Below, in pieces: positions 52,099 to 63,620 of a DNA stretch of 64,000 bases (position 1 is the first letter of the stretch; every line of letters begins with the position of its first letter). Below the pieces are notes generated by a model, which saw nothing but the letters and a program-made list of their open reading frames with translations, did no database searches and was not told the DNA's origin. Source of the stretch: Leptotrichia sp. oral taxon 847. Its GTDB lineage: Bacteria; Fusobacteriota; Fusobacteriia; Fusobacteriales; Leptotrichiaceae. A program made the position numbers and the translations under genes. The stretch lies in NCBI RefSeq assembly GCF_001553645.1, contig NZ_CP014231.1:2108001-2172000 (forward strand), read 5' to 3'.

Positions 52099-52797
52099 TT
52101 GATAGAAGAACATATAAAAAATGCAAAAGAAATACTTGAAAAAATGAACCGAAATCAAAAAATTAATTATCACACAATTTTGGGAAAATTAATAGATGAT
52201 TGGAAAAAAAACGAAATCCGACCGAAAATATTGGTTCATAGCTGTTGTGCGCCGTGTAGTACTTACGTTTTGGAGTTTCTTACGCAATATGCCGATGTTA
52301 CAGTACTTTTTGCCAATAATAATATTCATCCGAGAGCTGAGTATAAAAAAAGAGCTTTGGTGCAGAAGGAATTTATTGAAAAATTTAATAAAAAAACTGG
52401 AAATAGTGTGGGATTTATTGAGGACAAGTATAAACCTGCTGATTTTTATCGTGCTGTAAAAGGTTTGGAAGGCGAAAAAGAAGGTGGGAAAAGATGTACA
52501 GCTTGTTTTCAAATGAGACTTGACATAGTGGCAAAAAAGGCACAAGAATTGGGATTTGATTATTTTGGAAGTGCATTGACGCTAAGCCCACACAAAAATA
52601 GCCAACTTATAAATACATTGGGACTAGAAATACAAGAAATTTTTGATGTAAAATATTTACCATCAGATTTTAAGAAAAATAATGGTTATAAGCGTTCAGT
52701 CGAGATGTGTGCTGAATATGATGTTTATAGACAATGTTATTGCGGCTGCGTATTTGCGGCGCTGGATCAAGGAATTGATTTAAATGAATATAAATGA
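52099..52797 (+). CDS. queH: Epoxyqueuosine reductase QueH
   Basis: 232 residues. Final step of tRNA queuosine synthesis. Conserved metal/cluster cysteines: VHSCCAPCSTYVLEFL (about 48-63), GKRCTACFQMRL and RQCYCGCVFA. TTG start with AAAGGGA 7-8 bp upstream; no better in-frame start. It is the last chromosomal gene before the integrated element, and a terminator follows. Confidence 0.92.
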   Translation: MIEEHIKNAKEILEKMNRNQKINYHTILGKLIDDWKKNEIRPKILVHSCCAPCSTYVLEFLTQYADVTVLFANNNIHPRAEYKKRALVQKEFIEKFNKKTGNSVGFIEDKYKPADFYRAVKGLEGEKEGGKRCTACFQMRLDIVAKKAQELGFDYFGSALTLSPHKNSQLINTLGLEIQEIFDVKYLPSDFKKNNGYKRSVEMCAEYDVYRQCYCGCVFAALDQGIDLNEYK

Positions 52798-52857: not shown

Positions 52858-53913
52858 TTAAAAATCAATCTCTTCCAGAATTTTTCTTAAATAGTCGTTT
52901 GATTTAGGGATTAAATGAGAATAAGTCTCCAGTGTTACTTTAACGTTTTTATGTCCTAATCTTTTAGAAATAGCTGTTATATCAACTTTTTTATATAATA
53001 AATATGAAGCATGAGAATGTCTAAAATCATGAATTCTGATTCGTTTTAAACCACATTTTTTAGAAATAGAAATAATTCTTCTTCTAAGAGCATCATGTGT
53101 AAAACAAAATATTTTATCTGTTTCAGTTACATCATAAAGTGAATTTTTATATTTCTCTATTTCCTTGATCAAAGAATCAGGACAATATATAGTTCTGATT
53201 GAATTTTTTGTTTTAGGTGGGGCAATAGTAGTTCCTTTAATATCTCTTGAAACAGTTTTATTGATGTCAATAGTATGTTTTGAAAAATTAATATCTTCAA
53301 ACGTTAAGGCTAATAATTCCCCAACTCTTAATCCACACATAAATAGTATTTTAAATGCAATGGAAAAATTTGTTTCTTTAACTTCCTTAATAAAAATAGA
53401 AAACTCCTCTTCTGTCCATATATTAATAACTTTCTTTCTTTCGTTACTTCCAATGCTTTGACTTATTTTATATGGATTTTTCTGCAAATTATAAAATTTT
53501 TCAGCATAAGTAAAAATAGAAGAAAGAACCTGTGAAATTGTCCTTAAGTAATTTTCTGAATAACTACATTCTAATAAATTATTTTGCCATTCTCTTATAA
53601 TTTTTGGAGAAATATCCTTAATCTTTAAATCTTTAAAAAATGGAAGAATATGTTTAGTAATAATATGATTCCTCATTTTTATAGTAGAGACTCTAGCACG
53701 AAATTTAAAATCTTTAATAAACTCTTCATATAAATTTTGAAAAGTTATTTCAGGGTCAGATGACAAAGAGTTTATAAATTCTGCTTCCCATCTTCTAGCT
53801 TCAGATTGTTTCTTAAATCCTCTTTTTTTCTTTTTCTTATTATTTCCAAAAATATCTTTATACCACAACTGGACAAACCAAGTTCCTCTTTCTTTATCCT
53901 TAAAAACAGGCAT
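52858..53913 (-). CDS. int: Tyrosine-family integrase
   Basis: 351 residues. N-terminal AP2-like arm domain, core-binding domain, and catalytic domain with Arg in CGLRVGELLALT, HxxR in HDFRHSHASYLL, GHKNVKVT and the Tyr nucleophile in ETYSHL. It would insert and excise the element. ATG 53913 is set by GAAAGGAGG just upstream; the earlier frame start overlaps that RBS. One copy of the element-wide palindrome lies about 23 bp before its start. Confidence 0.95.
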   Translation of the reverse strand: MPVFKDKERGTWFVQLWYKDIFGNNKKKKKRGFKKQSEARRWEAEFINSLSSDPEITFQNLYEEFIKDFKFRARVSTIKMRNHIITKHILPFFKDLKIKDISPKIIREWQNNLLECSYSENYLRTISQVLSSIFTYAEKFYNLQKNPYKISQSIGSNERKKVINIWTEEEFSIFIKEVKETNFSIAFKILFMCGLRVGELLALTFEDINFSKHTIDINKTVSRDIKGTTIAPPKTKNSIRTIYCPDSLIKEIEKYKNSLYDVTETDKIFCFTHDALRRRIISISKKCGLKRIRIHDFRHSHASYLLYKKVDITAISKRLGHKNVKVTLETYSHLIPKSNDYLRKILEEIDF

Positions 53914-53935
53914 TTTCCCTCCTTTCAAAAAAATA

Positions 53936-53955
53936 CTTTACCACGCGTGGGAAAA
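53936..53955. repeat. Element palindrome, copy 1 (upstream of int)
   Basis: TTTACCACGCGTGGGAAA, one mismatch from the palindrome TTTCCCACGCGTGGGAAA. It lies about 23 bp upstream of the integrase start codon. Confidence 0.85.
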
Positions 53956-54128
53956 TATAATTTGATATTGTAAAATATCTTCTCTTATTAACAAATATTT
54001 ATACAATGTAAGTTATCTCGTGTTAGAATCTAAAGCTACCGCCTTTCGCTATGCTTCAGTTGCTCGAGTTACAAATTATTTTTTCTTCGTGAAAAATAAT
54101 TTGCAACTTAACAATTTTATAAACTTTG
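53956..54128. other. Intergenic region with a long hairpin
   Basis: AAATTATTTTTTCTTCGTG-type arm at about 54076 pairs with GAAAAATAATTT near 54099, and GTTGC..GCAAC flanks it. It may be a terminator for the convergent or tandem minus-strand genes. No gene supported. Confidence 0.4.
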
Positions 54129-54468
54129 TTATTTTAGTTTATAATTTTTGAAATATTTAACAAACATTCTTGCTTCTTTTTCCATTTTTTCCCTATCTTT
54201 ATTACACTCCTTAATTTAAAAGAATTTGTCGATGAAGTATAAAATGCGCAAATTCGTGAATTAAAATATCAATTTTCTCTTGTTTGGATAGAGACTTTTT
54301 TAAGAAAATGAAATTAACTTTATTAGTATCTATAAAAAATATTCCCTTTATATTGAAGTTTCCTTCTAAGATGTTAATTTTATAGTGATTACACAAAAAG
54401 TAAATATCTTTTGTGTTATGAAGAGTCATTAAAATTCTTATTCGTTTTTTTATGTAATTATATTTCAT
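54129..54468 (-). pseudogene. ImmA/IrrE-like metalloprotease, apparent frameshift near the C-terminus
   Basis: The first 85 codons (54211-54468) end in DILIHEFAHFILHRQILLN with the zinc motif HEFAH. ImmA-type proteins normally continue with another helix. If one A is removed from the AAA near 54216 the frame goes on as IKECNKDREKMEKEARMFVKYF to a stop at 54129-54131, which fits the usual EA-containing helix. ImmA cleaves the neighbouring phage/ICE repressor to induce the element. A natural truncation is the other reading. Confidence 0.55.
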
Positions 54469-54498
54469 AAATCCTCTTTACATCAAATAAAAAATATA

Positions 54499-55287
54499 TT
54501 ATTCGTATATTTTTTTACCTATTTTTTGACAATCCTCTCTATCTGAAGTATATAAAGTATTATAGATTTTTTTATATTTTTCAATTTGTTTTATAAAATT
54601 TGTTTTGACATTTTCATCTAAACTTTTTCCAATAAATTCAGCTCTATGAACAGTTTCTAATTTTGAATAAAATCCATCTCCAGTAAAATTACTAGAACCT
54701 ATGTAAATAGTATTGTTTATTATGTAAATTTTACTGTGTAAATTTATTCCGTCAAGAATATAAAAATTTATTTTTTTATCTTGAAATTTTACCATTTGTT
54801 CGTTTATAAAAGTTAAGAAATATCCATCTTTATTTTTGCTAAATTTTATAAATTTCTTCAAAAAATTTTTTTTATTTTCTTGCATTTCAGAAGTTGTTAG
54901 TATTTTTACTCTTACACCTCTTTTTATCAAATCCATAATTATCCTAGACAAATCAGAAAAATCATTATCACCAATGTATGGAGAAACAATGTAAAAATCT
55001 TCTCCAAATTTTAATTTACTCAGATCTTCTTTTATATTTTCGCCCACTTTAAAACCACTTATCCAACTAATTTTATAATTATTTGAAGTGGGAGAAAAAC
55101 GAAAATTTAAAATATCAGGGAATAAATCAAGCAGGTCTCTTTTATTTTTTACATACGGACTTAATTTTTCAAAAATTATATCTTGACTAGAAGTATCTAT
55201 TTGTTCTTCAAAATCAGAAATTCTAGAAATTCTTTTATCTAAAACTAATTTGTAATATGTAATAAAATCATCAATTGTATAATTCAT
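54499..55287 (-). CDS. PLD-like nuclease-family protein between ImmA and the repressor
   Basis: 262 residues. The C-terminal half has a phospholipase D-type motif LHSKIYIINNTIYIGSSNFTGDG: HxK is present, the usual Asp position is Asn, and GSSN follows. Only one such motif is seen, so it may act as a dimer like BfiI-type nucleases. The N-terminal ~80 residues are unassigned. RBS AGGAG lies about 7 bp before ATG. Its place inside the regulatory module suggests a defence or superinfection-exclusion cargo; this is inference. Confidence 0.7.
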   Translation of the reverse strand: MNYTIDDFITYYKLVLDKRISRISDFEEQIDTSSQDIIFEKLSPYVKNKRDLLDLFPDILNFRFSPTSNNYKISWISGFKVGENIKEDLSKLKFGEDFYIVSPYIGDNDFSDLSRIIMDLIKRGVRVKILTTSEMQENKKNFLKKFIKFSKNKDGYFLTFINEQMVKFQDKKINFYILDGINLHSKIYIINNTIYIGSSNFTGDGFYSKLETVHRAEFIGKSLDENVKTNFIKQIEKYKKIYNTLYTSDREDCQKIGKKIYE

Positions 55288-55335
55288 AAATTCACTCCTA
55301 AAATTATATTTTAACCACCCCTTTTAATTTATATA

Positions 55336-55695
55336 TTATTTTTCATATTTTTGTTTATAATAAAATTCCTGCAATAGCTCAATCATTTCTTTTTTATCTT
55401 CATCACTAATGTCTTTTGCTTCAAAGAAAGCCATATTATCTTTAGTTAGCTGCTCTTTAGTAATAATATTGTCTTTTTTCTTATCATCTTCAAATCCTAG
55501 AAGATATTCAGGAGAAACTTTAAAAAAACTTGAAAGTTTCATTAAATTTATACTACTTATTTTTCTTTCTCCAACCTCATATCTAGATAGAGTAGTTTTC
55601 GGTATATCCAATTTTTGTGATAGTTGTCCTAAAGAATATTTTTTTTTTTCTCTCAAAATTCTTAAATTATTTTTAAATTTTATCTTGTTAGTCAT
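55336..55695 (-). CDS. XRE-family repressor
   Basis: 119 residues with an N-terminal helix-turn-helix (YSLGQLSQKLDIPKTTLSRYEVGERKIS, in the first 40 residues) and a short acidic C-terminal region. It probably keeps the element silent and is the likely ImmA substrate. It is transcribed divergently from a Cro-like gene. RBS AGGAG precedes ATG. Confidence 0.9.
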   Translation of the reverse strand: MTNKIKFKNNLRILREKKKYSLGQLSQKLDIPKTTLSRYEVGERKISSINLMKLSSFFKVSPEYLLGFEDDKKKDNIITKEQLTKDNMAFFEAKDISDEDKKEMIELLQEFYYKQKYEK

Positions 55696-55727
55696 AATTT
55701 AATAACTCCTTTATTAAATAGTATAAC

Positions 55728-55753
55728 ACAAAAAATAAAAATATTGTGTATTT
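55728..55753. promoter_or_regulatory. Inverted-repeat operator candidate in the divergent region
   Basis: TAACACAA and TTGTGTA flank an A/T-rich centre between the two divergent regulator genes; likely bound by the XRE repressor. Confidence 0.45.
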
Positions 55754-55767
55754 TTATAAAATAATTG

Positions 55768-55796
55768 TTGACAAAACGGAACAAATATTGTATAAT
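55768..55796 (+). promoter_or_regulatory. Promoter with overlapping operator, early operon
   Basis: TTGACA (55768-55773), 17-bp spacer, TATAAT (55791-55796). The sequence GACAAAACGGAACAAA inside it recurs at 56038-56053, near the end of the next gene, so it looks like a regulator binding site. Confidence 0.75.
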
Positions 55797-55830
55797 ATTT
55801 TCAGATAGAAAAAGAAAGAGAGAAGATAAA

Positions 55831-56064
55831 ATGAATAAAAAACTTTTAAAATCAAAAATGGCATTAAATGGTGATAATAATCGTACAATAGCGGAGAAAA
55901 TAGGGATTACACCCGCTTCTTTTTCAAATAAATTAAATAGTAAAAGGGAATTTACAAGGGATGAAATGATAAAAATAAGAAATATTTATGGATTATCTAA
56001 TATGGAATTTCTTTTAATTTTTTTTGTTCCTTTTGTAGACAAAACGGAACAAAACAAAATTTAA
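55831..56064 (+). CDS. Cro-like small DNA-binding protein
   Basis: 77 residues; helix-turn-helix NRTIAEKIGITPASFSNKLN (about 15-34), as in XRE/Cro-type regulators. The ATG at 55831 is preferred (MNKKLLKSKMALNG) with AGAGAGAAG upstream; the longer frame begins inside the promoter. It opens the rightward operon that leads to rep. Confidence 0.8.
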   Translation: MNKKLLKSKMALNGDNNRTIAEKIGITPASFSNKLNSKREFTRDEMIKIRNIYGLSNMEFLLIFFVPFVDKTEQNKI

Positions 56065-56077
56065 AGGTGGTTTATTT

Positions 56078-56995
56078 ATGAAAAGAATAAAAATAGATGA
56101 TGTTGAAAAAACTAATTTTTATAAAATGCCTAAAAAAATATATGAGTTTGATTTAAAACCAGTAGACAGGGAATTATATATGTTATGTCTTGAGAATTGG
56201 AGATTATCAGTAAAAAATAATTGGATAAATGAAAATGGTGAAATATTTTTTTATGCAAGCCAAAATAAATTAGCCAAACAAATGAAAGTTAGCAAACCAA
56301 CCATCATAAGTTCATTTAAAAATTTAATTTCAAAAGAATTATTAGAAGCAGAAAAAGAATTGGGAGAAGCAAATATGTATTATTTGGCTGAGTTAAATAG
56401 TATAGAAGTAAAAAATTTTAACCAGTCAAAAAATTTAACTGGGGTAGTAAAAAAATTTAACCAGTACCAGTCAAAAAATTTAACTGGAGTAGTAAAAAAT
56501 TTTGACTCAATAAAGAATAATACATTAAGAATAAATGGAGAAAGAATAAATAAGCAAGAATTATCTTCTTCTGAGATTGAGAAAAATCAAGGTGTTGAAA
56601 ACCAAAGTATTGAAAATCGATCACAATTAAAGACTAATACATTAAGTACTAAAGAATTAAATACTTATTCTCTCTTTATGGAAAAATGGAATGAATTAGC
56701 AAAAGGATGTGAATTAAGTTTAATTAAATCTTTTACAGAGAATAGGAAGAAAAAATTATCTGAACTACTTGAGAAATTTACTCAGGAGGAAATTTTAGAA
56801 ACAATGTTTAAAATAAAGAATATAAACTTTTTACTTGGAAGAACTGATAAATCAAACTGGAAAATATCATTTGATGATTTTCTTAATGAGGATAAGTTTA
56901 TGAAAATAATGGAGGGAAGTTATTATGATAAAAATAAGCGAACTAGTTCAAAAGAAGCAGGAAAAACAATCGAAAAAAACTACGACCTTTGGTAA
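56078..56995 (+). CDS. RepA_N-type replication initiator
   Basis: 305 residues. The N-terminal ~110 residues (NFYKMPKKIYEFDLKP ... LSVKNNWINENGEIFFYASQNKLAKQMKVSKPTIISSFKNL in part) resemble the RepA N-terminal winged-helix domain. The middle has a tandem amino-acid repeat (QSKNLTGVV twice). The C-terminal part (from about 200) is helical, DnaD-like. It probably starts replication of the excised circle. AAAGGTGG precedes ATG; its 3' end overlaps the DnaC-like gene. Confidence 0.8.
   Translation: MKRIKIDDVEKTNFYKMPKKIYEFDLKPVDRELYMLCLENWRLSVKNNWINENGEIFFYASQNKLAKQMKVSKPTIISSFKNLISKELLEAEKELGEANMYYLAELNSIEVKNFNQSKNLTGVVKKFNQYQSKNLTGVVKNFDSIKNNTLRINGERINKQELSSSEIEKNQGVENQSIENRSQLKTNTLSTKELNTYSLFMEKWNELAKGCELSLIKSFTENRKKKLSELLEKFTQEEILETMFKIKNINFLLGRTDKSNWKISFDDFLNEDKFMKIMEGSYYDKNKRTSSKEAGKTIEKNYDLW
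56421..56510 (+). repeat. Tandem repeats inside rep, candidate iteron origin
   Basis: Two copies of a 45-bp unit (ACCAGTCAAAAAATTTAACT... starting 56421 and 56466), with one extra AACCAGT at 56459. RepA_N replicons carry the origin inside the rep gene, so this may be the binding site of the initiator. Confidence 0.65.
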
Positions 56996-57686
56996 TAACG
57001 AGTATACAGATGAAGAAATAAGAGTAAGTCTTAGACTGAGAGAAGACAAGATTAAACAAAAAATATCATTTTTTAAAAGAATTTCAAGTATTCCTACTAA
57101 CTTTGAGCAATTTAATTTTGAAAATGCAGTTGTAGATTCTAAACAGGAACAGGAAGTGAAAGCTAAACTGGAGTATTACTGTGATAATTTTAAAAAAGCA
57201 AAAAATATGGGGATTGGGTTATGTCTTGTGGGAAAAATAGGAACTGGAAAAACATTTTATTCATTGTGTGTGATGAACCGTCTTATTGAAAAACGTTATA
57301 AAATTTACAGAACATCGTTAAACAGTATTTTTCAAAGAATGAGAGATACAATTAATAAAGAGTCGAAAGAAACGATAGAGGAGATATTTAAAAACTTGAC
57401 TGAGGCAGATTTAATTATTTTAGACGATGTTGGTGTTGAATATATGACAAGCTGGGGAAAAGCTCAATTATTTGATATATTTAACTTTTTTTATGAAAAA
57501 AATAAATGTATTGTGATGACAACAAGTTTAGAGCAGGAAAAATTTAAGGAATTTATGCAAGTAAATGATGATAATCCAATTTTAGACAGATTTTCGCAAA
57601 GAATAAAAACTTTAAAATTTACCTGGAAAAGCAAGAGAAAAGAAATTGGTGAAAAAATATTTAAAGAATTTTGGAATGAAATATAG
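56925..57686 (+). CDS. DnaC/IstB-like helicase-loader ATPase
   Basis: 253 residues; Walker A VGKIGTGKTFYS (about 101-112) and Walker B LIILDDVGVEY. Follows rep in the same transcript and overlaps it by 71 bp in another frame. It would load the replicative helicase at the element origin. GGAGGGAAG precedes ATG. Confidence 0.88.
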   Translation: MIKISELVQKKQEKQSKKTTTFGNNEYTDEEIRVSLRLREDKIKQKISFFKRISSIPTNFEQFNFENAVVDSKQEQEVKAKLEYYCDNFKKAKNMGIGLCLVGKIGTGKTFYSLCVMNRLIEKRYKIYRTSLNSIFQRMRDTINKESKETIEEIFKNLTEADLIILDDVGVEYMTSWGKAQLFDIFNFFYEKNKCIVMTTSLEQEKFKEFMQVNDDNPILDRFSQRIKTLKFTWKSKRKEIGEKIFKEFWNEI

Positions 57687-57699
57687 GTGTTAAAAAATT

Positions 57700-58059
57700 A
57701 TGGAAAGAAATAAAATTTTATACGACATAAAAGATATTTCGGATATATTACAAATATCAATACCAACAGCATATAAAGTTGTAAAGTGTTTAAATGACGA
57801 ATTAAGCAAAAAGAAAAATAAGTATGGAGACAATTATTACACTTTTGGAGCAAAAATATATTCTAAGTATTTTGTAGAACGATTTTATGATAACAAGTTT
57901 TTGAAAATAAAACAAATAATGGAAAAATTGGAAATAAAGGAATTTGAGGCAAAAAAAATATGGAAAAAATCTAAAAAAGAGCTTTTAGAAAAAGGATACT
58001 TGATAATAAAAGGCAGAGTTCCTGAAAAATTTCTAATGGAGAAAATAAGAGTTGTTTAA
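57700..58059 (+). CDS. Helix-turn-helix protein
   Basis: 119 residues. An N-terminal helix-turn-helix, DISDILQISIPTAYKVVKCLN (about 12-32), is followed by a second possible wing (KIKQIMEKLEIKEFEAKKIW). Small HTH proteins at this spot in mobile elements are often excisionase or copy-control factors, but I cannot assign one. Starts 13 bp after the DnaC-like gene. Confidence 0.7.
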   Translation: MERNKILYDIKDISDILQISIPTAYKVVKCLNDELSKKKNKYGDNYYTFGAKIYSKYFVERFYDNKFLKIKQIMEKLEIKEFEAKKIWKKSKKELLEKGYLIIKGRVPEKFLMEKIRVV

Positions 58060-58401
58060 AAAATAGAAATCAATTTTAAAATGTAAAATATCGTTTTTTA
58101 GGCAAATTTTTACAAAAGGCAACCAATTATACCAAAAATTAAAAAAACGAGCAATATACCACCTTAAAATCGATTTTAGAGTGGGTTAAGAGACAATAAG
58201 ACAATAACAACTAAATAAAAATGTAATCCCATTTTTGTGTGAAGTCATTTTTATATCAAGACAATGAGGACAGAATAATAAAAAAAGATGTGATTGCAGA
58301 AGTTTACGTGATAATAAAAATCCCTAGAGAGTTGAGGAGTAAGTGACAGGTGATAAAGTCGCTAAAACACAAAAAAATTAAAATTGAAGGATGTGATTGT
58401 A
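58060..58401. other. Non-coding gap, 340 bp
   Basis: Contains the short direct repeats AGACAATAAGACAATAAC near 58190 and TCAAGACAATGAGGACAG near 58256 and an ATCGATT-type segment. It could hold an origin of transfer or a leader RNA, but nothing is firm. A 63-codon frame at 58350-58541 is in the shadow of the next gene. Confidence 0.35.
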
Positions 58402-58644
58402 ATGAAAAAATTAAAAAAAGATTGGATGTATTTTGTATTGCTAGGATTAGTGGCGTATATAGATTCCTCGGAAGCATATATAAACGGAGATTTGAGAGTA
58501 GTCATAATAGAAAATGTATTTTGGATGGTACTGTCGCTTAGGGTAGTAAGTTTTTTGATGTATCTTTATGAAAAAAGAAAAATTAAAATCAAAAAAGAAA
58601 AAGCCGCTGAAGAAAACAGCGACAATATTATAATTTTAAAATAG
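58402..58644 (+). CDS. Small membrane protein
   Basis: 80 residues with two hydrophobic segments (WMYFVLLGLVAYI and VFWMVLSLRVVSFLMYLY) and a charged Lys/Glu tail. Unrecognised. ATG 58402 has GAAGGATG upstream. Confidence 0.6.
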   Translation: MKKLKKDWMYFVLLGLVAYIDSSEAYINGDLRVVIIENVFWMVLSLRVVSFLMYLYEKRKIKIKKEKAAEENSDNIIILK

Positions 58645-58727
58645 TATTCGTGAAATCGAACAAGTAAATTATACAGAAAAAATGAGAATTTGTAAAGAAA
58701 AATTTTTGATAAAAGGATGGAAATTTT

Positions 58728-58913
58728 ATGAAAAATAAATATAAATTCAATAAAATTTATGATAGGGCAGAAAAATTGATCAATAAATTAAGAAAAAAAG
58801 GAGGATTTGAAGATGAAATTGAAGAAGCTAAATATTCATTATACGAAGATAAGGATATAACGTATGACGAATTAAAAACAATTTTAAAAATAATGGAAGA
58901 ATTATTGAGATAA
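58728..58913 (+). CDS. Small helical protein, paralogue A
   Basis: 61 residues, all charged helix. The end EEAKYSLYEDKDITYDELKTIL matches DEAREAIEDDEITFGELKIIL in the gene at 61895, so the two are paralogues. Family unknown. AAAGGATGG precedes ATG. Confidence 0.7.
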   Translation: MKNKYKFNKIYDRAEKLINKLRKKGGFEDEIEEAKYSLYEDKDITYDELKTILKIMEELLR

Positions 58914-59013
58914 AAAAATTAATTTCGAGGAAACAATGGAAAATAAAAAGAACAAAAAAATTGTATGAAACTTGTTTTAAATAGAAAATTATATTTGAAA
59001 TGGAGAGAAAGAA

Positions 59014-59196
59014 ATGGACAAAGCGACATATATAAATACTGTATTTTACTTAGCAACAACAGGATTAATATTATTTATTTTTGGTTTAGTCTGTACTTTC
59101 GTAACTAAAGAAAAAAGCAAATATTTATATTATCCTGTTGCATTGCTGATAATGATAATATTTTTAACGGGTTATTTCGTTATTTTCAATAAGTGA
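59014..59196 (+). CDS. Small two-helix membrane protein
   Basis: 60 residues; hydrophobic TTGLILFIFGLVCTFV and VALLIMIIFLTGYFVIF. GGAGAGAAAGAA precedes ATG. Unrecognised; its 3' end overlaps the convergent gene at 59164-59559 by 33 bp. Confidence 0.6.
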   Translation: MDKATYINTVFYLATTGLILFIFGLVCTFVTKEKSKYLYYPVALLIMIIFLTGYFVIFNK

Positions 59197-59559
59197 TTTA
59201 TCAAGAACGATAGTGTTATATCTTAACATATCAGTAAACCAGTTTAAATTGTGAAAATCATAATCTTTTTTCAAGGAAAAGTTTTTAGAGAAAATTTTTA
59301 AGAAGATGATTAACTTCTCTTTGCTGATTTCTTGATAATTAGCACTTTTAGCATTTTCACCATTTAAAATATAGGCGCAAAAATCAGTATAGGCATTAAA
59401 GGATTTTCTGTCAAAAAATAATAAATCTGCTGAAAATTTATCAGTTTTTTTAATAATGGAATCAAGATTATATAAATTTTGGGTAAGTTGCTTTAGATAA
59501 TCAACATCAGGATCTCCTATATTCTTACGATGAAAATTATACATATCCTTATTTGACAT
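59164..59559 (-). CDS. Hypothetical protein, opposite strand to the element's genes
   Basis: 131 residues, no family recognised, no signal peptide; a central segment with KSFNAYTDFCAYILNGENAK. It is the only minus-strand gene in this part of the element and has no clear RBS. It starts exactly where a relaxase remnant begins on the other strand, so it may have entered by the same rearrangement. Confidence 0.45.
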   Translation of the reverse strand: MSNKDMYNFHRKNIGDPDVDYLKQLTQNLYNLDSIIKKTDKFSADLLFFDRKSFNAYTDFCAYILNGENAKSANYQEISKEKLIIFLKIFSKNFSLKKDYDFHNLNWFTDMLRYNTIVLDKSLIENNEITR

Positions 59560-59901
59560 TATATATCAGAAAGACAGCTTAAAATTTCAAATTCAATTGA
59601 TGAATTTAAAGAAAACTTTATAAAATTAGGGTATAATATTAAATTTTCAGAGAAAAATATTACTATAACTGACAAAGAAAATAGAAGTGTAAGATTAAAA
59701 ACTTTGGATAAGGCTTATACAAATGAATATATTATCAATTTTTTTGAAAGAAAAAAGAAAATAGTAATTAAAAATGGACAAATAGATAAAAGATTTGGAA
59801 ATAAAAAATATTATAAAAACAATTTAATGAGCTTTACTAGTTTACGAAGAGTAGCAAGGGAATTTGGCGCAGCAAGGTTTGCAACAAGAAGGTTTAAATA
59901 A
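59557..59901 (+). pseudogene. Relaxase remnant (C-terminal part only)
   Basis: Open frame without a start codon: DEFKENFIKLGYNIKFSEK, then NITITDKENRSVRLKTLDKAYTNEYI, which resembles the end of the MobA/VirD2-like relaxase domain (gkkxRxxTLGxxYT). The catalytic N-terminal part with Tyr and HxH is missing. It may have been replaced by the minus-strand gene. A TTG at 59704 would allow only a 65-codon product. Confidence 0.6.
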
Positions 59902-59918
59902 TTAAGGAGGAAGCAATA

Positions 59919-60713
59919 ATGAAAATGATAAGTTTTGTAAATCCAAAGGGAGGAGCAGGGAAAACTACTTCTGCGATCAACATAGCATACGCACTAAAAA
60001 ATAAAGATAAAAAAGTACTTTTAATTGATACTGATCCAAGAGGAGCGGTTGCAACATATCTTAATATTCACAATGAAAATACAATTTTACAACTTATAAA
60101 GGAAATTTATGATAATTTTGGAATAATAGAAAATTTGGGAAAATATATAACTATAAAAAATGGAGTTGATTTGATTGTATCAGATTCATCAATGATAGAT
60201 TTTGATAAGATTTTTCCTGAAGAAGAACATTATCAGGATGTATTCAGAGAATTAAGACAGAAACTTCAAAATTATGATTATGTGATAATTGATACTGAAG
60301 GAACAATAAGCAATACTGTTAAGTCTGTATTAAATGCTACTGATTATATTTTCGCACCAACGAAATCAAGTTATATTGATATGAATGGAATTGTCGATTT
60401 AAAAAGTATATATGAAATTGCCAAATTAAGTAATCCTAATATTAAATTGACAAAAATTTTTACAGTTCAGGCTGAAGTAAATACAAGAATCTTTAAAAAA
60501 TCACATAATGATTTAAAAACAGCTTTTGAAAGTATGAAAGATGAATTTGGTAAAAATCCATATTCTGAAATATATATAAGAAAATCGTCAGATATATTAA
60601 ACAGTATGGAATTGAATAAAGATATATTCAGTTATAAAAAAACAACAACGGCAGGAAGAGATTATAAAAACTTAGTTTATGAATTTTTACAGGAAGAAAA
60701 GAAAATTGATTAG
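59919..60713 (+). CDS. parA: ParA-family ATPase
   Basis: 264 residues with the deviant Walker A motif NPKGGAGKTTSAIN (about 8-21), Walker A' LLIDTDPRGA and Walker B YVIIDTEG. Moves plasmid DNA or stabilises the element. No ParB lies next to it; the DUF3102-like proteins downstream or the palindromes may supply the partner. AAGGAGG precedes ATG. Confidence 0.92.
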   Translation: MKMISFVNPKGGAGKTTSAINIAYALKNKDKKVLLIDTDPRGAVATYLNIHNENTILQLIKEIYDNFGIIENLGKYITIKNGVDLIVSDSSMIDFDKIFPEEEHYQDVFRELRQKLQNYDYVIIDTEGTISNTVKSVLNATDYIFAPTKSSYIDMNGIVDLKSIYEIAKLSNPNIKLTKIFTVQAEVNTRIFKKSHNDLKTAFESMKDEFGKNPYSEIYIRKSSDILNSMELNKDIFSYKKTTTAGRDYKNLVYEFLQEEKKID

Positions 60714-60721
60714 GTTTAAAA

Positions 60722-60747
60722 ATACTTTCCCACGCGTGGGAAAGTAT
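60722..60747. repeat. Element palindrome, copy 2 (perfect, 26 bp)
   Basis: A perfect 26-bp palindrome: TACTTTCCCACG and its complement, centred on ACGCGT. It lies just after parA and 19 bp before the next ATG. It is the best of the four copies. Confidence 0.9.
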
Positions 60748-60765
60748 ATTCAGAAAGGAAGAAAT

Positions 60766-61008
60766 ATGAGAAAGAAAATAATAATTTGTTCTTTAATTTC
60801 AATAATTGTGTCAAGCACTGTATGGTATGGAATAATAAGTTATCAGGCAAAAAAATATCGAAATGAATTAAACATGGAAAAAGAAAAAATAAAAAAATGC
60901 AATGAAAAAATATCAATGTATGAATTTTATATAAAAGAACAAGAAAAAAGTATAGAAAATTTTTATAACTCAATCTTAAACAAGGATGGAATGAATTATA
61001 GGGAATAA
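60766..61008 (+). CDS. Small membrane-anchored coiled-coil protein
   Basis: 80 residues: one membrane helix (IIICSLISIIVSSTVWYGI) then a Lys/Glu coiled coil. ATG 60766 has AGAAAGGAAG upstream; the longer frame reads back through the palindrome. Unrecognised. Confidence 0.65.
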   Translation: MRKKIIICSLISIIVSSTVWYGIISYQAKKYRNELNMEKEKIKKCNEKISMYEFYIKEQEKSIENFYNSILNKDGMNYRE

Positions 61009-61026
61009 AGAAAGCAAGGAAAAATA

Positions 61027-61821
61027 ATGATAGATTTGAATAGATATTTTTACGATGATAAAAAAATTCATTCTTTAAAACTTACGGAAAATTCATTGAT
61101 TATAAATTACTGGGATTGTTGTTTTGATGAAATTAAAATTACAACAGAAGAAGATAAGAAGGAAATTTTAAAATATTATATTAATTATATTATGAAGAAA
61201 GGAGAAACGATGGGAAGAATAGAAATGCTCACAAAGACTAATAATTTAGTACAGACTGCATATAAAAGCGATTTTGAATTTAAAAAATATGAAATTGAAG
61301 ATGAAGAACTCATATTAAAACTTTCAAAATCTGAGGAGGAAGTGATGAAGTCAGGAAAAGTTGTAGCTAAAGAATCACTGAAGTTAGGGAGAAAGTTTTT
61401 TGAAATTCAGGAATTATTATCCAATTGTAAGTCTGGGACTTTTGTAGCTTGGATTAAATACATGAATATTGATAAGAACTTTGTTTATAGAAAAATAGAT
61501 GCCTGGAAGTTATTTATGAAATATCAGAATCCAATGATAGCAGAGGCAAGTGTAAGAACAATAGAATTTATTAAAAAAAATGACGAAATTTTAGAAACGA
61601 AAAAAATAAATGAAATTTTAGAAGAACCTAAGAGCGCTCCTGAAAAAATAAAGGAAATTCAACAGGCAGAGATAGTGGAAGAGGAAAAAACAATAGAAGA
61701 TAAAGTTTCTGAAATAGATAAAAGGATAGAAGCAGAATACGAAAAGATAGCAAAATCTGAAGAAAAGATAGAGTTACTGAAAGAAAAGAAAAATAAATTG
61801 AAAATGGATAAAATATTTTGA
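61027..61821 (+). CDS. DUF3102-like protein, copy 1
   Basis: 264 residues. Residues about 95-180 (VVAKESLKLGRKFFEIQELL ... GTFVAWIKYMNIDKNFVYRKIDAWKLFMKY) match the DUF3102-type helical DNA-binding-like core and the copy at 62667. The C-terminal third is a coiled coil (EKIAKSEEKIELLKEKKNKL). An internal AAAGGAG and ATG at 61210 could start a shorter 203-residue form, so the first 61 residues may be optional. Might act as a ParB-like partner of ParA; not shown. Confidence 0.7.
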   Translation: MIDLNRYFYDDKKIHSLKLTENSLIINYWDCCFDEIKITTEEDKKEILKYYINYIMKKGETMGRIEMLTKTNNLVQTAYKSDFEFKKYEIEDEELILKLSKSEEEVMKSGKVVAKESLKLGRKFFEIQELLSNCKSGTFVAWIKYMNIDKNFVYRKIDAWKLFMKYQNPMIAEASVRTIEFIKKNDEILETKKINEILEEPKSAPEKIKEIQQAEIVEEEKTIEDKVSEIDKRIEAEYEKIAKSEEKIELLKEKKNKLKMDKIF

Positions 61822-61894
61822 AATAAATTATGAAAATAAAAAATAAATTTGAATTCAAAAAATAAGGTGAAAATATACATTGAAAGGAAAAATA

Positions 61895-62074
61895 ATGAAA
61901 AGAAATTTAATAAAAAAGATAGAAAATAAAATTTATGAAATTGAAGAAAAATATGAAAATAAAGAATATATTTCAAATCAATTGGATGAAGCAAGAGAAG
62001 CAATAGAAGATGATGAAATTACTTTTGGTGAATTAAAAATAATTTTGGAAAATTTGGAAGAATTGGAGGATTAA
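61895..62074 (+). CDS. Small helical protein, paralogue B
   Basis: 59 residues, paralogue of 58728-58913. ATG 61895 follows GAAAGGAA; the earlier TTG at 61880 lies upstream of this RBS. Function unknown. The next gene starts 1 bp after its stop. Confidence 0.65.
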   Translation: MKRNLIKKIENKIYEIEEKYENKEYISNQLDEAREAIEDDEITFGELKIILENLEELED

Positions 62075-62075
62075 G

Positions 62076-62594
62076 ATGGAAAATGTAGTAACTGTAAAAG
62101 AAATGGTCCTATTTAGTGGTGAAGAAAAAATGACAGAGACAGTGAATAATTTTATCAATAATATGATTATTTATTTTCGTGAAGAAGTGAAACTGGAAGA
62201 AGTAGAAAAATATATTATAAAACAGAGGGAACAAATTTTGAAGTTTATTTTAAAATTTGAAGATAATAGTATTGAAGATAACTTTTTTTGCTTTTTAGAA
62301 TTTAAATATGGAAATATCGAAAAACAAAAAGTTGTTGATGAAATGACATTTGATGAAATTACAGTAAAAGATTTTTGCCGCGCATATGGTATGGTAAATG
62401 CGAGAAAATATATAGCGGAACATATAAAAAAAATTTTTGGAACAACTAAAGATGAAAAAGAGTTTTTAGATAGTGGGATAGCAGAAATTCTTGCATATAA
62501 TGTATCAATGCTTATGAATGAGATGACTGTCAATAGCGCAATAGAAGAAATCGTGGGAAATGAAGAAAATTATTATAAAAGAAATAAATATTAG
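62076..62594 (+). CDS. Hypothetical cytosolic protein
   Basis: 172 residues, unrecognised. Charged N-terminal helix, central TVKDFCRAYGMVNARKYIAEHIKKIF region and C-terminal NEMTVNSAIEEIVG. Starts right after the small helical gene, so they are coupled. Confidence 0.65.
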   Translation: MENVVTVKEMVLFSGEEKMTETVNNFINNMIIYFREEVKLEEVEKYIIKQREQILKFILKFEDNSIEDNFFCFLEFKYGNIEKQKVVDEMTFDEITVKDFCRAYGMVNARKYIAEHIKKIFGTTKDEKEFLDSGIAEILAYNVSMLMNEMTVNSAIEEIVGNEENYYKRNKY

Positions 62595-62603
62595 TCAGAT
62601 TCA

Positions 62604-62635
62604 AAAATACTTTCCCACACGTGAGAAAGTATTTT
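62604..62635. repeat. Element palindrome, copy 3 (imperfect)
   Basis: TACTTTCCCACACGTGAGAA with outer ATACTTT/AAAGTAT arms kept; two centre changes from the consensus. It lies about 31 bp before the start of the second DUF3102-like gene. Confidence 0.85.
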
Positions 62636-62666
62636 AAACCTAATAAATTAGAAAGGTGGAAATAAT

Positions 62667-63233
62667 ATGAATGATGTAGTTGAAAGATATGAAAGTAGTT
62701 TTAATTATGAAGAATTTGAGGTGAACAATGAAGAAAAAGAGTATTTTATTGAAAAAGAACAAGAATTGATTAATTTAGGACAGCAAGTGGTAAAAGCTAC
62801 ACTTGAAATTGGGAAAAAATTATCGGAAGTTCAAGAAAAAATAGGAAATCCTAATAATGGAATGTTTTTAAAGTGGTTTGAACATATTGGTTTTAAAAAA
62901 AATTATGTTTATAGAGAAATTAATAGATGGAAAATGTTTGAAAAATATCAAATTTCTGCTATTGCTGAAGCAAGTATAAGAACAATAGATTTCATTAAAA
63001 AGAATGAAGACAAAGTTGCTAAGAATGAAATAGAAGAAATATTAAAAATGCCTGGACAGGCAAGTAATAAAATAAAATCATTAAAAGAAAACATTGAAAT
63101 AAAAAAAGAAAGTATAATAACACCTGAAATAGAGATAAAAATAATTAATGAAAAGATAGATTTTTATTTTGAAAAAATTAATAAATTGGATTTGAGAAAG
63201 AAAGAACTGGAAGAAAGAATAAAAAATAATTAA
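62667..63233 (+). CDS. DUF3102-like protein, copy 2
   Basis: 188 residues. VVKATLEIGKKLSEVQEKIG and WFEHIGFKKNYVYREINRWKMF match copy 1 closely, as does AEASIRTIDFIKKN. C-terminal coiled coil. GAAAGGTGG precedes ATG. A duplication of the core within the same operon is clear. Confidence 0.75.
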   Translation: MNDVVERYESSFNYEEFEVNNEEKEYFIEKEQELINLGQQVVKATLEIGKKLSEVQEKIGNPNNGMFLKWFEHIGFKKNYVYREINRWKMFEKYQISAIAEASIRTIDFIKKNEDKVAKNEIEEILKMPGQASNKIKSLKENIEIKKESIITPEIEIKIINEKIDFYFEKINKLDLRKKELEERIKNN

Positions 63234-63257
63234 AAAATTTCAATTTTATTAGAAACA

Positions 63258-63275
63258 TTCCCACGCGTGGGAAGG
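63258..63275. repeat. Element palindrome, copy 4
   Basis: ATTCCCACGCGTGGGAAGG, with the inner CCCACGCGTGGG intact. It lies about 28 bp before the next ATG. Confidence 0.85.
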
Positions 63276-63302: not shown

Positions 63303-63620
63303 ATGATATTCAAATTTATAGAAATTGAAAATGAAGGACATAAAATTCCTTTATTTTTTGGTAAATTAAAAGATAATAATTATAAAAACTACATAAGAAA
63401 GATTGAGAATATAACATCAGAAAGTTGGGATGGCGAAGGTGGTAAATTGAAAAGATTTTTGAAAAAATTTAACTTTGAAAAAATAAGAAATATAACAATT
63501 GATAGGAAATCATCTATTGAAGTTTATAAAACAACTGAATTGGAATTTTCAATAATTAGAATAAAAAGAATAACGCCAGTGTATGAATTACTTGATTATA
63601 TAAAAAAGATAATATTTTAG
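63303..63620 (+). CDS. Hypothetical protein upstream of the relaxase
   Basis: 105 residues, mixed alpha/beta (IFKFIEIENEGHKIPLFFGKL), unrecognised. ATG 63303 has AAAGGATT upstream; the longer GTG frame at 63267 runs through palindrome copy 4. Confidence 0.6.
   Translation: MIFKFIEIENEGHKIPLFFGKLKDNNYKNYIRKIENITSESWDGEGGKLKRFLKKFNFEKIRNITIDRKSSIEVYKTTELEFSIIRIKRITPVYELLDYIKKIIF

Follow-up and report, generated by a model that had tools for sequence, protein, structure and literature searches.

The stretch of DNA considered here (the window) comprises 64,000 nucleotides of the chromosome of Leptotrichia sp. oral taxon 847 (NZ_CP014231.1, positions 2,108,001 to 2,172,000) and holds part of a 41.5-kb integrative and conjugative element (ICE). 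The element is delimited by a 22-bp direct repeat (ATTGATTTAAATGAATATAAAT; at 52774 and at L004:7363, where L, G and C numbers are our own handles for loci, genomes and contigs), which lies at the 3' end of a gene that we read from its translation as queH. Its gene content includes int, an XRE/M78 pair, a RepA_N initiator, a DnaC-like protein, parA and a VirB-type secretion apparatus, and parA is followed by genes for two copies of a helix-turn-helix (HTH) protein (Table 1). A palindrome with the core CCCACGCGTGGG recurs in the window at 53940, 60729, 62614 and 63260; its distribution, and its probable role in the partition of the element, are the subject of this study.

The palindrome and the ICE that carries it

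The four copies had been noticed in the original prediction, which was made from the letters of the window, and a scan retrieved all of them, against 0.11 expected and with none of 100 shuffled sequences reaching four. The copy at 60722 is indeed the perfect 26-bp palindrome that it was said to be. Each copy also lies upstream of a start codon, as claimed, but the distance is ~23–39 bp from the 16-bp core rather than 19–32 bp. A search of the whole 2.19-Mb genome, allowing <=3 mismatches to TTCCCACGCGTGGGAA, yielded 6 places in total, the two additional ones (C1:2185946 and C1:4356) being located outside the window, 26 bp 5' of the gene that comes after virB4 and 40 bp 5' of an NlpC/P60 gene, respectively. 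All six copies fall within the ICE, which represents 1.9% of the genome (p ~5e-11 from length alone), and none was found elsewhere in the chromosome. The number of copies in the window and their confinement to the element refute an origin of the palindrome by chance or as a motif of the host chromosome. Its half-site can be written as TTC-Y-CAC-R; the halves differ by transitions alone and without bias towards RNA pairing, as is expected of a protein dimer on DNA.

Related elements carry such sites as well, several of them at orthologous intergenic places. Nearly all sites in the ICE studied here and in those of five sister genomes sit in short intergenic gaps; the lone site that appears to lie inside a gene (60727) reflects an artefact of the open reading frame (ORF) start, because the downstream gene starts at 60766. 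Site positions are kept between ICEs whose proteins share just 45–60% identity. Conserved places are found 8 bp 3' of the stop codon of parA and ahead of the HTH gene (own and sister ICEs), before int (own ICE and that of L. hongkongensis), and between the lytic transglycosylase and NlpC/P60 genes in our ICE and in G070, G071, G072, G073 and G078, where on contig C42 of the last genome the downstream gene is cut off. Sites precede, by 23–49 bp, the start codons of int (in two ICEs), HTH genes, the post-virB4 gene, the NlpC/P60 gene and small genes.

Table 1. Positions of the palindromic sites and of the ICE features discussed, in window coordinates
Feature	Position	Strand	Details
Site 1, TTACCACGCGTGGGAA	53938..53953	none	1 mismatch; 24 bp before int ATG
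Site 2, ATACTTTCCCACGCGTGGGAAAGTAT	60722..60747	none	perfect 26-bp palindrome; 8 bp 3' of parA stop codon, ahead of next gene
Site 3, TTCCCACACGTGAGAA	62612..62627	none	2 mismatches; 39 bp before second HTH gene
Site 4, TTCCCACGCGTGGGAA	63258..63273	none	24 bp 3' of second HTH gene
parA, Soj/ParF-type deviant Walker ATPase	59919..60713	+	no N-terminal HTH extension; Pfam AAA_31 E 3e-30; PDB Soj/ParF matches; PHROG ParA-like
ParT-like HTH protein, first copy	61210..61821	+	37% identical to second copy
ParT-like HTH protein, second copy	62667..63233	+	candidate site-binding protein; sequence relatives, AlphaFold, ParT profile match
attL core, ATTGATTTAAATGAATATAAAT	52774..52795	+	3' end of queH; second copy L004:7363
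int, ICE tyrosine recombinase	52858..53913	-	Pfam Phage_integrase E 2e-18; ATG start
RepA_N-type replication initiator of ICE	56078..56995	+	Pfam RepA_N E 1e-10
Small gene after site 2	60766..61008	+	translation
Small gene after site 4	63303..63620	+	translation

Several other features of the ICE were recorded. The listed ORF of int runs from a TTG at 53928, as opposed to the ATG start taken here, and both ends of the ICE carry 20-bp repeats. Near both ends lies TGGGGGCAAAATGGGGGCAA, which looks like integrase arm sites. The RepA_N gene harbors an internal 41-nt direct repeat with a spacing of 45 bp (56421–56506, beginning with ACCAGTCAAAAAATTTAACTGG), as expected of an origin within rep; since repA possesses this repeat of its own, the palindromes were ruled out as RepA iterons. 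Between the XRE repressor and M78 (ImmA-like) protease genes (54211–55695) lies a gene for a PLD-domain nuclease-like protein. From their translations, a topoisomerase-like gene is situated near the right end of the ICE and an IS256/Mutator-type transposase-like gene (L001:14679-15905) between a relaxase-like region and virB8.

The HTH protein and the associated site classes in Fusobacteriota

The ParA of the element contains the deviant Walker A motif KGGAGKTT. The HTH protein encoded after parA belongs to a family of 188–230 aa that is present in 45 of the 98 Fusobacteriota genomes, mostly adjoining parA; in most of the 38 elements examined, a gene for an HTH-type protein, predicted to bind DNA, lies next to parA. 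Searches against Pfam and NCBIfam gave no family match for it, and PHROGs returned only groups without assigned function. The label “DUF3102-like” of the original prediction could not be confirmed: no Pfam match to DUF3102 (PF11300) was obtained at E <=0.1 in ten relatives, nor at 0.05 for the second copy in the window. AlphaFold (predicted local distance difference test score of 77 for the whole chain and 84 for residues 20–150) predicts a disordered N-terminus, a long helix (residues 21–59), an HTH domain up to ~149 and a C-terminal helix (153–187), the coiled coil of which presumably forms the dimerisation part. Neither Pfam nor the predicted structure reveals a ParB_N CTPase domain. Foldseek gave no match to the model with an E of 0.001 or better, and a sequence search of the PDB with the family produced coiled-coil chance matches only; the DNA-binding domains of KorB, Noc, P1 ParB and SopB, all in one register, occupied 10 of the 50 rows of a VIA structure comparison. 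HTH_ParB (PF17762) and ParB_N did not exceed the cut-off in any of 13 Leptotrichia genomes, with positive controls, and a canonical ParB was rejected on this ground as the protein that binds the sites. This also suggests that chromosome segregation in the genus Leptotrichia probably does not make use of ParB-parS.

The palindrome occurs in several sequence classes, which follow the HTH protein. TTCYCACRYGTGRGAA, carried by the sister Leptotrichia ICEs, has 33 exact sites in 7 of the 98 Fusobacteriota genomes, all 7 of which encode the HTH protein, and none in the remaining 91; a reversed-sequence control also gave none. Within Leptotrichia it is found in all 6 genomes possessing an HTH protein of the window clade and in 0 of the 7 others (nominal p=0.0006). 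TTTTCTCACGCGTGAGAAAA is the sister form of the palindrome. TTCGACCGCGGTCGAA (6 sites in 3 genomes) always occurs as a pair flanking parA, and its carriers include circular plasmids, i.e., L. wadei pJCM16777-1 and its L. hofstadii counterpart. TTCGGTCATGACCGAA (16 sites in 7 genomes, all of one genus) is located just before parA on a 128-kb plasmid of Cetobacterium somerae, and TTCGCAAGCTTGCGAA is present in 7 copies, one-base variants included, within 17 kb of one contig of G067. Plasmid relatives have two or three sites each, all or mostly at par genes. In other clades, odd-length palindromes of 15–17 bp flank the HTH gene or fall within it; palindromes in the 3' coding part of this gene were noted at L086:3089, L087:6534, L088:10255, L090:10053, L094:14875 and L101:10721. 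A further core type, TTCGCACGCGTGCGAA, was encountered once, at L096:11675 (G078 contig C18), without an obvious cognate protein.

Over all clades, a TTC...GAA palindrome was detected in 22 of 38 par zones, compared to a mean of 1.0 and a maximum of 5/38 for 23 other end triplets; the counts of 18/38 and 22/38 are lower bounds (i.e., at least these numbers), because scans for perfect palindromes miss imperfect copies. The site ends TTC...GAA are mostly conserved between clades, and the core changes with the recognition helix: VYR or AYR goes with TTCNCA (or TGTCGCA), VYL or VYM with TTCGG, and VSxS with TTCGAC. Two systems with different site classes coexist in each of G070 and G078.

Comparison with known partition systems

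ParT of the Streptomyces coelicolor plasmid SCP2 is a CTPase-less ParB; an inverted repeat of 18 bp within the parT gene serves as its parS. Relatives of ParT that are linked to ParA have been reported almost only from Actinomycetota, and ParT systems independent of cytidine triphosphate (CTP) were published in 2025 (PMC12260392). As in SCP2, a small CTPase-less ParB-like protein is encoded beside parA, its predicted layout shows the order of N-peptide, long helix, HTH and a C-terminal, putatively dimerising, part, and in several Fusobacteriota relatives an inverted-repeat site lies inside the HTH gene. In contrast to SCP2 ParT, the host belongs to the Fusobacteriota, the protein is shorter (188–230 vs 325 aa) and up to six sites are dispersed over an ICE. 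An hhalign comparison between a profile of ParT relatives and the HTH family scored 22.5 and was co-linear through the HTH, while column-shuffled controls (n=60) stayed at <=14.0 and the reversed profile gave 9.5. Within the parT gene of SCP2 a single perfect inverted repeat of 18 bp is present, TGTCTCCAATTGGAGACA, which we take to be the published parS; its start, TGTC-N-C, resembles the TGTCGCA half-sites of the Fusobacteriota proteins with an AYR helix, and the helix residues of ParT (AYRMI) include the same AYR.

With KorB/IncC of the IncP plasmid RK2 the system has in common a ParA-linked, here putative, site-binding protein and dispersed palindromic sites, some of which precede transfer and maintenance genes, as well as a predicted HTH domain of weak similarity; it differs in that KorB possesses a CTPase domain and makes use of KorA (PMC11790492), and in that the site sequence is unrelated. 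The Soj-like ParA and the palindromic sites of ~16 bp are reminiscent of canonical ParABS (Spo0J/Soj), but the sites are not TGTTNCACGTGAAACA, and in the Leptotrichia genomes searched no protein matched ParB_N or HTH_ParB over the cut-off. Two features of type I ParABS in the broad sense, a ParA with deviant Walker A motif and palindromic sites near the par genes, are present. We class the system as ParABS in this broad sense, with a ParT-like layout, without calling the protein a proven homologue of ParT. It is kept apart from canonical ParB, since neither a CTPase domain nor an HTH_ParB match was found.

Proteins with a related HTH region were also observed in phages of the SPbeta group (phi3T, L112:5920-6837) and of Streptococcus thermophilus (phage CHPC1036, L114:2899-3840); phage proteins of PHROGs 1733, 32652 and 26898 (e.g., phi3T QNN96660, 46% over 58 aa) have such a region. 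No parA adjoins the HTH relative in the phage records examined (SPbeta group and S. thermophilus), and scans of viral contigs with three family members recovered no relatives. The phi3T relative led us to consider SPbeta SPBRE for comparison, which was set aside, the one pertinent paper found being about MrpR as master repressor. A diverse alignment of 20 family members was too variable for a locus search, and a search with a closer alignment returned just two Leptotrichia loci, both already in the set.

Proposed function, alternatives and implications

Good support exists for one suggestion of the original prediction, namely that the palindromes serve the ParA system as centromere-like sites: they are confined to an element with ParA, lie beside or inside the parA and HTH genes in many relatives, and shift in sequence with the HTH clade. 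We consider it probable that they are parS-like sites for a CTPase-less analogue of ParB, namely the ParT-like HTH protein whose gene comes directly after parA. We infer physical binding by this protein, activation of ParA and partition: a dimer, joined by its C-terminal coiled coil, would set one HTH on each TTC-Y-CAC-R half-site, and, once loaded at the sites, would recruit or stimulate the Soj-type ParA ATPase, as a result of which the ICE in its excised form, replicating by RepA_N, would be distributed at cell division, as would the related plasmids. In a second, less certain step, the bound protein might also affect int, the post-virB4 gene and the NlpC/P60 gene in the way KorB does, a side effect that is conceivable because sites lie 23–49 bp before many genes; by analogy with KorB we regard it as a tentative addition.

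Several observations sit uneasily with a role as parS. Within 250 bp, about 16 of the 38 par zones lack a perfect TTC palindrome, some of the contigs being truncated, and a pure centromere would not usually have dispersed sites in mid-operon gaps. The exact site of the window is also that of the G013 protein, which is just 28% identical, and the correlation between helix and core is suggestive but does not amount to many independent events, because the protein clades share ancestry. Furthermore, the VIA comparison reached a Z of just 3.5–5.8, within reach of a common helical arrangement, and the match to the ParT profile is weak by itself (probability 2%, E 0.024).

An alternative is that the palindromes act mainly as a KorB-like global operator, through which the HTH protein or a different regulator of the ICE represses or activates int, par and transfer genes, with partition secondary or absent. 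Their position ahead of so many start codons agrees with this, as does the perfect TATAAT just 3' of the site preceding the post-virB4 gene, and KorB provides a precedent for one protein serving both partition and regulation (PMC11790492). However, promoter-like scores (>=8/12 matches) near sites are slightly higher than those at other gene starts (48% vs 31%, p=0.07), several sites are mid-operon, the few sites of the plasmid relatives keep to the par genes, and the HTH gene is paired with parA in most relatives. A predominantly regulatory role appears unlikely. Common control of int and other modules from one operator, as originally envisaged, may still apply, since int in two ICEs and transfer genes have sites ahead of them, but promoter overlap is only weakly enriched and several sites are mid-operon.

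If the sites were an operator, the XRE/ImmR-like repressor (55336–55695) might be thought to bind them, as in ICEBs1-type regulation, since its gene and that of an M78 (ImmA-like) protease both occur in the ICE. Yet the intergenic region between xre and the divergent small HTH gene is devoid of the palindrome and holds, adjoining these genes, another repeat instead (GACAAAACGGAACAAA at 55770–55785 and 56038–56053), which differs from the palindrome and is a candidate for the operator of XRE; moreover, on plasmids that are unrelated in gene content the type of palindrome still goes with the ParA/HTH pair. This makes the XRE protein a very improbable binder. Hardly any more room is left for an RNA hairpin or terminator in the 5' leaders. 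The transcripts do fold (z -1.6 to -4.7), as any palindrome does, but broken pairs (C-A, 4) are not significantly rarer than wobble pairs (T-G, 7; p=0.55), and of the four copies in the window a single one has a terminator-like score, on the wrong strand.

Partition by a ParT-like protein and regulation may be united in a bolder reading, which is rather unlikely to hold in full: a CTP-independent ParT-like protein would use up to six dispersed parS sites both as a centromere and for global regulation of the ICE, and would thereby link the segregation of the excised circle to expression of int, the mating pore and cell-wall hydrolases, within a family that would span the phylum in Fusobacteriota plasmids and ICEs and would share a readable helix-to-half-site code with Streptomyces ParT.

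Maintenance of plasmids and ICEs has been little described in Fusobacteriota, and the Leptotrichia genomes searched lack a canonical ParB. Our literature searches retrieved no account of this HTH protein family or of such a segregation system in this phylum, and the related plasmids and other elements across Fusobacteriota, each with its own version of the palindrome, point to a DNA-segregation system that was undescribed there in the literature searched. If our interpretation is correct, the ParT-like kind of partition would extend to another phylum, the Fusobacteriota. Several site classes exist in nature together with their cognate proteins, and G070 and G078 each combine two different pairs in a single genome; these would offer ready test material for the choice of parS without CTP and, as a by-product, incompatibility-type markers for Fusobacteriota elements. 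With putative segregation sites ahead of int and transfer genes in a single ICE, a coupling between partition and regulation would be directly testable.

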